Source: Deltaproteobacteria bacterium (GTDB lineage Bacteria > Desulfobacterota > Syntrophorhabdia > Syntrophorhabdales > Syntrophorhabdaceae). Taken from it: DNA of 32,110 nt. The translations under genes were made by a program, and so were the position numbers. Shown here in pieces: positions 4,985 through 31,999 of the stretch; position 1 is the first letter of the stretch, and each line of letters starts with the position of its first letter. The notes beneath the pieces were generated by a model. That model was not told the DNA's origin and ran no database searches. It saw only the letters and a list, made by a program, of their open reading frames with translations. The stretch covers positions 1-32,110 of the forward strand of contig JAKORG010000011.1 of assembly GCA_029777945.1 (NCBI GenBank), in the 5' to 3' direction.

Positions 4985-5075
4985 GGAGAGATGTCCGAGA
5001 GGCCGAAGGAGCACGACTGGAAATCGTGTGTTCCGCCACAAAGCGGGACCGAGGGTTCAAATCCCTCTCTCTCCG
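4985..5075 (+). tRNA. tRNA-Ser (GGA)
   Basis: A 91-base class II tRNA. The acceptor GGAGAGA pairs with TCTCTCC, the anticodon loop is CTGGAAA (GGA, reading TCC/TCT), a long variable arm is present, and the T arm is GAGGG/CCCTC around TTCAAAT. The discriminator is G, as expected for serine. CCA is not encoded; the gene is followed directly by a run of five T. Confidence 0.96.
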
Positions 5076-29626: not shown

Positions 29627-30934
29627 TTACCTGCATTTAGCAAGAAAGTTTACAATATCCTTTGTCATTTCTATAGCATTTATAAAGTTTTCTACTGATA
29701 TCCTCTCATTTTTTCCATGCATCTTCAAAATCTCTTCTTTATCAAAAACTGCAGGAAAAAAGCCGTATGCAGGAATGTTTAAATTTCTAAAATAACGTAA
29801 ATCAGAGGCGCCAGTCAATAAACATGGTAGCACAGGGATATCGCCCTTGGATCTGCGTATTGTCTCTTTAATACCCTTGAAATATTCCGTGTTATAAGAA
29901 GATGGTTTTGGGTCAACTGCACTTCCATCCAACATTATAACCTCTACATCTTTGCCACATAATTTTTTTATTCTGGAAAAGAAATTTTCCTTGTTTTCTT
30001 GGGGTAGGAGCCTTGCATCGAAATAGATAGTGGCCTCAGATGGTATGACATTTATCTTTTCTCCGCTTTTCAAGATCGTGGGTACTACTGTATTTCTCAA
30101 AAGGGCATTGAAAAGGGGATTTGCCTCTAAGGCCTCTCTTATCTTTTTGTTTTTAAGGCCTTCTTTTAATGTGTTAAACCTTACCCCCTCTATTGTTTTG
30201 TCTTTGAGGATACCGTTTAAATAAGAATTTACAACACCTGTCACCTTTATAGGCCATTTATGGGAAATAATTTCATAAGATGCCTTAATTACTTTTTCAT
30301 TGGCACTATCCTGGGAGGGCATAGAGCCATGCCCACCTTGTCCGTGTGCCTTTAACATAAACTGGCTTATCTTTTTTTCTGCAACGGCAATCTGGGCATG
30401 GATAAAACCATTTTCTTCTATAAAAGAGCCGCCTTCACTTAATACAAAGGATGCTTCCTGAAGTTCTTTAACTTCGTTGAGCATGTATTCAATGCCATTT
30501 TTACCGCCCACCTCTTCATCGCATGTGGCAAGGAAGATCAAATCTCTTTCAGGGACAATACCTTTTTTATAAAGGTCTATAAAGGCAAAAAGCTGGCTTA
30601 TTGTCTGGGATTTCATGTCAATAGCCCCTCTGCCGTATATAAAACCGTCCTTTATCTCTCCTGAAAAAGGATGGACATCCCACTCATCGGGATTGGCAGG
30701 GACAACATCTATATGACTCAATAAAACTATGGGTTTGCCTTTTTTTCTGCCTTTTATCTTTGAAAGTAAATTTGCCCTTTTCTTTACAGGGAGATAAATT
30801 TGAGTTTCAAGGCCTTCCTTTGTGAGGATACTGTCTAAAAATTCAACAGCCTCTTCCTCGTTGCCCGGTGGATTTGATGTATTGATTTTTATAAAATCTG
30901 ATAAAATCTTTACTGCATAATCCTCTTCATACAT
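29627..30934 (-). CDS. M20 family metallopeptidase (ArgE/DapE/carboxypeptidase-like)
   Basis: A 435-residue zinc peptidase or deacylase. The metal ligands are visible: His and Asp in LLSHIDVVPA, the bridging Asp in GRGAIDMKS, the Glu pair in TCDEEVGG, Glu in VLSEGGS and the C-terminal His in KMHGKNERIS. The middle third is the dimerisation lid (KAHGQGGHGSMP). The length and the long lid region suit dipeptidase or aminoacylase-type members; the substrate is not predictable. AAGGGG precedes the ATG. First gene of an operon with proS and the M24 peptidase. Confidence 0.92.
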   Translation of the reverse strand: MYEEDYAVKILSDFIKINTSNPPGNEEEAVEFLDSILTKEGLETQIYLPVKKRANLLSKIKGRKKGKPIVLLSHIDVVPANPDEWDVHPFSGEIKDGFIYGRGAIDMKSQTISQLFAFIDLYKKGIVPERDLIFLATCDEEVGGKNGIEYMLNEVKELQEASFVLSEGGSFIEENGFIHAQIAVAEKKISQFMLKAHGQGGHGSMPSQDSANEKVIKASYEIISHKWPIKVTGVVNSYLNGILKDKTIEGVRFNTLKEGLKNKKIREALEANPLFNALLRNTVVPTILKSGEKINVIPSEATIYFDARLLPQENKENFFSRIKKLCGKDVEVIMLDGSAVDPKPSSYNTEYFKGIKETIRRSKGDIPVLPCLLTGASDLRYFRNLNIPAYGFFPAVFDKEEILKMHGKNERISVENFINAIEMTKDIVNFLAKCR

Positions 30935-31000: not shown

Positions 31001-31024
31001 AAAAAAAGGGGGATTACCCCCCTT
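31001..31024 (-). terminator. Intrinsic terminator after the lysine-rich small protein
   Basis: On the reverse strand GGGGG-TAAT-CCCCC (the 5' arm can extend to six G) is followed by seven T. The stem is short but pure GC. It lies about 14 bases after the stop codon at 31038. Confidence 0.8.
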
Positions 31025-31037
31025 GAGATGATGGAAG

Positions 31038-31112
31038 CTATTTCTTTGTCTTCTTGTCCTTTTTTGTTGTCTTTTTTTCATCTTTTTTTGCTGTAGTCTT
31101 TTTGCATCCCAT
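31038..31112 (-). CDS. 24-residue lysine-rich small protein
   Basis: An ATG at 31112 is preceded by AAGGAGG at ideal spacing. The frame encodes 24 residues, half of them lysine, built from degenerate units (KKTTAKKDE, KKTTKKD, KKTKK) after the start MGC, and ends in TAG. It has its own near-consensus promoter and a strong terminator, so it forms a complete transcription unit of about 130 bases. I recognise no family. The charge suggests binding to nucleic acid, ribosomes or anionic lipid; the single Cys3 might be modified. A longer frame on the same strand (30938-31120) is out of phase and lacks these signals. Confidence 0.65.
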   Translation of the reverse strand: MGCKKTTAKKDEKKTTKKDKKTKK

Positions 31113-31138
31113 AATAACACCTCCTTTTTTTTAAATCC

Positions 31139-31167
31139 ATGTTATTTTAAATAGTTGGATTTGTCAA
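31139..31167 (-). promoter_or_regulatory. Sigma-70 promoter of the lysine-rich small protein
   Basis: TTGACA (31167-31162), a 17-base spacer and TAACAT (31144-31139) on the reverse strand; predicted start about 31132, giving a 20-base leader with the ribosome-binding site in it. Confidence 0.6.
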
Positions 31168-31196: not shown

Positions 31197-31418
31197 TTAT
31201 CCTGTTATAACCTCTTTAACCTCCGGTATCTCATCTTTTAATTGTTTTTCAACACCCATTTTCAATGTCATCATACTCATGGGACAGCTACCGCATGCCC
31301 CACGAAGTCTTACCTTAACCACGCCATCTGTTGAGACATCTAATAATTCTATGTCGCCTCCATCTCTCTGTAAATAAGGCCTTATCTTTTCTATCACAGC
31401 CTGAACTTTTTCCTTCAT
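31197..31418 (-). CDS. NifU-like / Nfu-type iron-sulfur scaffold protein
   Basis: A 73-residue stand-alone NifU C-terminal (Nfu) domain that carries or delivers [4Fe-4S] clusters. It starts with the standard [23 protein letters not shown] and has the cluster-binding CxxC in [15 protein letters not shown] lies before the ATG. It would suit the many iron-sulfur proteins of this organism, but it is not linked to nif genes here. Confidence 0.95.
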
Positions 31419-31455
31419 ATTTCCTCCTGCTTTTTATGTTGAAATAAGTTATAGA

Positions 31456-31484
31456 ATTATAAACATATTTTTTTGATAAGTAAA
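31456..31484 (-). promoter_or_regulatory. Probable promoter of the Nfu gene
   Basis: TTTACT (31484-31479), a 17-base spacer and a perfect TATAAT (31461-31456) on the reverse strand, about 38 bases before the ATG. Confidence 0.5.
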
Positions 31485-31549
31485 CAACTGTTGAAAAAAA
31501 GTGTGTCAGGGCGTAAAAAGGATTTAAGAAAAAGGGAAGGGGAAAGGTA

Positions 31550-31999
31550 TTATTCGATTTCAACCTTTATCTCTTTCGGCATTGCCTTTTGTGATTTTGG
31601 AATGGTTATCCTTAAAACACCATCTTTATATGTTGCCTTTGCCTTATCTGCTACTACCTCTGTAGGAAGCTGTATTACCCTCTGAAATGCGCCATATATC
31701 CTTTCAGACCTGTAATAATCTGCCTCTTTTATCTCCTCTTCTCTCTTTCTTTCCCCTTTAACTGTTAATCTGTCTTCTACGATGGATATGCTAACATCCT
31801 TGGGGTCTATTGCCGGAAGGTCAAAGGAAACAACTACATCCTTTTTTGTTTCATGGATGTCTACGGCAGGCACCCACTGGCCTTCTTTTATACCAGGAAA
31901 ACCTGTTTTCTCAAAAAAATCTTCAAAAAGCTTATCCATTTCTTCTTTTAAAGTAGGGAATCTAAACTCCCATAAACTCTTCCATGGTGTAAGTGTCAT
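31550..31999 (-). CDS. Hsp20 family small heat-shock protein
   Basis: A 149-residue ATP-independent chaperone that holds unfolding proteins. The alpha-crystallin domain spans about 45-140: VPAVDIHETKKDVVVSFDLPAIDPKDVSISI, then RLTVKGERK, the YGAFQRVIQLP strand and the family motif KDGVLRITIPK. A short C-terminal tail KEIKVEIE holds the oligomerisation I-x-V. AGGAGG precedes the ATG. An extended -10 TGG-TATAGT at 32079-32071 on the reverse strand may be its promoter; no CIRCE element or clear sigma-32 box is visible. The upstream 111 bases to the window edge hold no other gene. Confidence 0.96.
   Translation of the reverse strand: MTLTPWKSLWEFRFPTLKEEMDKLFEDFFEKTGFPGIKEGQWVPAVDIHETKKDVVVSFDLPAIDPKDVSISIVEDRLTVKGERKREEEIKEADYYRSERIYGAFQRVIQLPTEVVADKAKATYKDGVLRITIPKSQKAMPKEIKVEIE

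Follow-up and report, generated by a model that had tools for sequence, protein, structure and literature searches.

Does the short interval between an nfu gene and a peptidase gene encode a protein and, if so, what might that protein do? The initial annotation of the window (the whole 32,110-nucleotide stretch of DNA analysed here) had proposed a complete mini-gene at 31001–31167, and its coordinates and letters proved correct: all elements lie there on the minus strand (Table 1). The frame, MGCKKTTAKKDEKKTTKKDKKTKK, opens with an ATG at 31112, closes with a TAG stop ending at 31038 and contains 12 lysines among its 24 amino acids. The end of the −10 hexamer is 26 bases from the ATG, which predicts a leader of ~20 bases. 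Past the TAG stop, the hairpin starts after 13 bases and gives way to a T run at ~31005–30996. A longer start at 31140 (MDLKK...) was rejected: it lacks a ribosome site and is in frame in a few relatives but not in the window.

Table 1. Positions of the mini-gene elements and of the neighbouring genes in the window.
Feature	Positions	Strand	Remarks
−35 hexamer TTGACA	31162..31167	−	TTGACA at the corresponding position in 18/23 relatives
−10 hexamer TAACAT	31139..31144	−	17-base spacer to −35
Shine-Dalgarno GGAGGTG	31118..31124	−	GGAGG to ATG, 7 bases
24-residue frame MGCKKTTAKKDEKKTTKKDKKTKK, including stop	31038..31112	−	Purifying selection, conserved
Intrinsic terminator hairpin AAGGGGGG-TAA-TCCCCCTT	31006..31024	−	Followed by T run TTTTTATTTC
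nfu (NifU-like domain, 73 residues), upstream neighbour, outside the mini-gene	31197..31418	−	Pfam PF01106, E 4e-31
Hsp20, upstream of nfu, context only	31550..31999	−	Pfam PF00011, E 1e-23
M20-family peptidase, downstream neighbour, context only	29627..30934	−	Pfam PF01546, E 3e-29

A self-contained gene under protein-level selection

Taken alone, the promoter match in the window is at chance level for an AT-rich stretch (6 TTGACA/−10 matches observed versus 5.2 expected in shuffled sequence). The expression signals become significant because they are conserved across relatives. These were sought by way of the neighbouring Nfu protein, whose coding loci were retrieved, in a sample of 46 genomes of the host class. 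A lysine-rich frame directly follows nfu in 20 of the 46, spanning 10 genera (for example, MGCKKATPKKDEKKTTKKDKKTKK, MACKKAAPKKETTKKTTKKEKKTKK, MAKCGTTKKTAKKAAPKKEKKTKK, MATCGMKGDKATPKKATKKTTSKKEKKTKK, MACGTKGGCATPKKATKKTETKKDEKKTKK and MTCGVKGCGAAKAAPKKAAPKKAAPKKAKKTTK), and a profile search added three class genomes with a copy away from nfu (MTCGMKGCGTTKAAPKKAAKKAQPKKASKAKK, MSCGVKGCGTTKKAAKKPAAKKPKSKK and MSCGTKGCGAGKKATKKPAAKKEKGKK). The small gene is thus present in 23 genomes, half of the sample.

Upstream of these 23 copies, TTGACA-N17/18-TAnnAT occurs in 18 (for locus L093 the promoter was counted by eye, the scan having given a tied site), and the start codon lies 22–32 bases past the −10 element. 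All 23 carry a Shine-Dalgarno-type site (GGAGG/GGGGG type), and 19 are followed by a GC hairpin whose stem letters vary; a few lack a good T run. The gene therefore has its own conserved transcription and translation signals. Lysine-rich frames with such signals are rare in the surrounding DNA: a scan of 483 kb (the window plus 80 loci around nfu relatives) for Shine-Dalgarno-preceded frames of 18–45 residues, at least 35% of them lysine, returned 8, of which 7 belong to the small-gene family and 1 is unrelated.

Substitutions within the frame were compared in seven independent close pairs. Codon positions 1, 2 and 3 took 16, 8 and 41 of the 65 substitutions (chi-square p ~1e-6), and 25 changes were nonsynonymous versus 44.7 expected when the same base changes were placed randomly; none of 5000 randomisations gave 25 or fewer. 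Values of pS ranged from 0.16 to 0.71 versus 0.00 to 0.15 for pN, an excess of synonymous change that marks conservation of the frame as protein. The initial annotation had named lack of such conservation as its refutation; instead, the frame is kept in relatives and selection acts on its amino acids. Together, we regard the 24-residue lysine-rich frame as almost certainly a protein-coding gene.

The standard Prodigal gene caller has a limit of 90 bases, and this 24-residue gene, for which protein-level selection is documented, is shorter than such usual limits. The host class consists of uncultured or hard-to-culture syntrophs. Searches for a described counterpart gave no Pfam or NCBIfam match at E up to 10, curated H1-like families included, and no Rfam match for the small gene; the single PHROG match was insignificant (E 0.14). 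A PDB sequence search with a 30-residue member returned no match, ribosomal proteins of solved structures included, and our literature search found no paper on this family. The family thus appears undescribed in the libraries searched. It resembles the unannotated small-protein families of the global GMSC catalogue, likewise multi-genus, below gene-caller length and devoid of a Pfam domain, as are most conserved multi-genus families there (PMC11364881); what distinguishes it is the documentation of selection as well as of promoter, ribosome site and terminator.

Distribution and gene neighbourhood

Roughly half of the class genomes have no detected copy, including 11 of the 12 genomes of one genus, whose sole copy (in G013) is cysteine-free. 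Either some lineages can do without the function or their copies were missed. Among the loci inspected in class genomes whose nfu lacks an adjoining copy, a scan for KKxKK followed by a stop found only the ends of larger proteins or frames lacking a ribosome site. A second DNA match in the host's own genome (C34, L002) was rejected as a paralogue, being A-rich sequence that lies within other genes.

A pattern search of 395 phylum genomes found two genomes of another class (G056 and G128) with MSCGKKGCGKKKA(A/V)KKSSKKK-type frames (MSCGKKGCGKKKAAKKSSKKKK and MSCGKKGCGKKKAVKKSSKKKATKKKK). Here the neighbourhood is different: a gene with 2Fe-2S and 4Fe-4S domains precedes the small gene, which adjoins rplI and lies upstream of it and of a gene that, by sequence, is rpsR. 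The nine-residue head in common argues for homology of these frames rather than convergence. Beyond the host class and these two genomes, the profile and two patterns found no copy in the 395 genomes, which speaks only weakly for absence elsewhere in the phylum because the short profile is insensitive, having missed known copies in G002, G003, G019 and G020.

The Hsp20-nfu gene order (31197–31999 in the window) is kept in most class genomes, whether the small gene is present or not, indicating that the latter is a self-contained unit slotted after nfu. Downstream lies an M20 peptidase or a response regulator-GGDEF protein, depending on lineage. The initial annotation took the strong signals to imply an abundant protein beside Nfu and Hsp20. 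Abundance is a prediction from those signals, and a functional tie to Nfu or Hsp20 gains no support, as most class genomes lacking the small gene still have the Hsp20-nfu pair and three copies lie off nfu; the neighbourhood yields no strong hint on function. Elsewhere in the window, Rfam places two tRNA genes, at 69–141 (−) and 4985–5075 (+).

A lysine tail with a cysteine head

Proteins of the family have 21–33 residues, 9–12 lysines and a net charge of +8 to +12. Pooled over the family, 254 of 615 residues are lysine and 1 is arginine; each protein has 0–3 F/W/Y/I/L/V residues, next to none of them aromatic. AAA and AAG codons are both freely used and locus GC ranges from 0.36 to 0.53, so lysine itself, rather than an A-rich DNA tract, is selected. 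The tail ends in KKTKK or similar. The 'KKTT-KKD units' first described for this frame are real in the window copy, but do not extend to the family, in which lysine pairs, an N-terminal cysteine and the avoidance of arginine are what is kept. This cysteine is found in 22 of 23 copies (the exception is L116). The fullest head, M(T/S)CGxKGCG, has two cysteines in CX4C-type spacing, and relatives of the window copy have shorter heads, MAKCG or MGC; most copies, the window's included, have a single cysteine. We would guess that M(T/S)CGxKGCG is ancestral and was shortened to MAKCG and to the window's MGC.

In composition, the small protein resembles the tails of bacterial histone H1-like proteins (AlgP, PhaF and Hc1/Hc2 of Chlamydia), which are likewise rich in lysine, alanine, proline and threonine, of low complexity and expected to be disordered; its own tail is lysine-rich, hydrophobic-poor and of low complexity, and one variant (L105, AAPKKAAPKKAAPKKA) has the K/A/P composition of H1-type tails. 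Judging by sequence, no curated family includes it. H1-like tails run to tens or hundreds of residues and normally form part of larger proteins, whereas the small protein is free-standing, has a cysteine head and is essentially free of arginine. In vitro DNA binding is reported for AlgP KPAA-repeat peptides (cited in PMC9239181). As a separate observation, an Omnitrophota contig carries an H1-tail-like micro-gene (L014:2653–2754 (+)) whose 33-residue lysine-rich frame, MAVKKKAAKKKVAKKKPAKKKAAKKKTAKKKKK, has a GGAGGTG site, no cysteine and another context.

Our main reading, to which we give a probability of about 0.45, is that the locus is a single-gene unit encoding a polyanion-binding lysine-tail protein with a cysteine head; nucleic-acid or polyanion binding as the mechanism is tentative, somewhat short of an even chance. 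What we infer here, from expression level and disorder to the binding of polyanions and what the cysteine does, would combine as follows. The single-gene transcription unit would yield a constitutively made intracellular protein of 21–33 residues, with a short head bearing one or two cysteines and an unfolded tail in which lysine is the only positively charged residue. Electrostatics may hold the tail along polyanions, with DNA the most probable partner and RNA or polyphosphate possible ones; in the manner of a free-standing histone-H1-type tail, it would neutralise and bridge them. The head could join two tails by a disulfide, bind a metal or anchor the tail to another partner. A simple H1-like tail would not need the conserved cysteine, which speaks against that version. 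One bolder variant, a long shot in our estimate, makes these undescribed, free-standing, arginine-free lysine micro-proteins with the CGxKGCG head redox- or metal-switchable condensers: an oxidised or metal-loaded head would crosslink tails and thereby compact DNA, RNA or polyphosphate in syntrophic anaerobes. If the protein does condense nucleic acid or polyphosphate, few known condensers would be as small; the strict use of lysine in place of arginine, together with the conserved cysteine head, makes a clear, testable puzzle.

The cysteine could instead be the point of the protein, CGxKGCG binding a metal or thiol partner in Fe-S biology and the lysines serving solubility or docking only. 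The near-constant cysteine, the CX4C-type pair of the fullest head, the usual nfu neighbour and, in the other class, the preceding 2Fe-2S/4Fe-4S gene agree with this; the single cysteine of most copies, its loss in L116, the gene's own promoter and terminator, and its position away from nfu in three genomes do not, and we consider such a metal or redox peptide unlikely. The charge could also serve the ribosome. Short basic bacterial proteins such as bTHX and Sra pack into rRNA; bTHX, at ~25 residues and highly basic, is close to the small protein in size and charge, and the location upstream of rplI and rpsR in G056 and G128 would suit a ribosome-associated micro-protein. Ribosomal micro-proteins are rich in arginine and aromatic residues, however, and the near absence of both here, the lack of any sequence match and the patchy presence within the class make this role rather improbable.

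Little credence goes to readings in which the lysine stretch acts through translation or outside the cell. A short frame with runs of lysine codons might form a leader peptide or regulatory RNA whose translation controls something downstream, but in most copies a strong terminator closes the unit and the predicted leader is only ~20 bases, which disfavours it. Moreover, the downstream gene varies while the frame is kept, leaving no constant target on the same transcript, selection falls on amino acids rather than nucleotides, and Rfam gave no match. The protein is small and cationic, as a secreted antimicrobial or signalling peptide would be, yet it has no signal sequence, no exporter or immunity gene beside it and too few hydrophobic residues for membrane insertion, and we hold this, too, to be very improbable. 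A chance reading frame in an A-rich spacer can practically be dismissed: such DNA readily gives lysine codons, and the lone promoter match is at chance level, but the conserved frame and signals, the selection and the family specificity of the 483-kb scan refute it.

A second NifU-domain protein with an in-frame TGA

The nfu loci brought up an observation separate from the small gene. Ten class genomes (loci L192–L201; G021, G009, G006, G004, G002, G010, G033, G039, G044 and G040) encode a second NifU-domain protein, a divergent one, that carries an in-frame TGA at one shared position. We found no paper on a TGA-containing NifU-like protein in a literature search, and for a SECIS element there was no Rfam match, with unconvincing post-TGA hairpins in three of the four cases tested. 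The motif reads ...GG(R/K)L(H/L/M/T)-TGA-CG(D/H/E)xALxLW(V/A)(E/D)KLLKE..., the TGA lying directly 5′ of a Cys codon, about where Nfu has its CxxC. From its letters, this looks like a NifU-like protein with a selenocysteine U-C motif.
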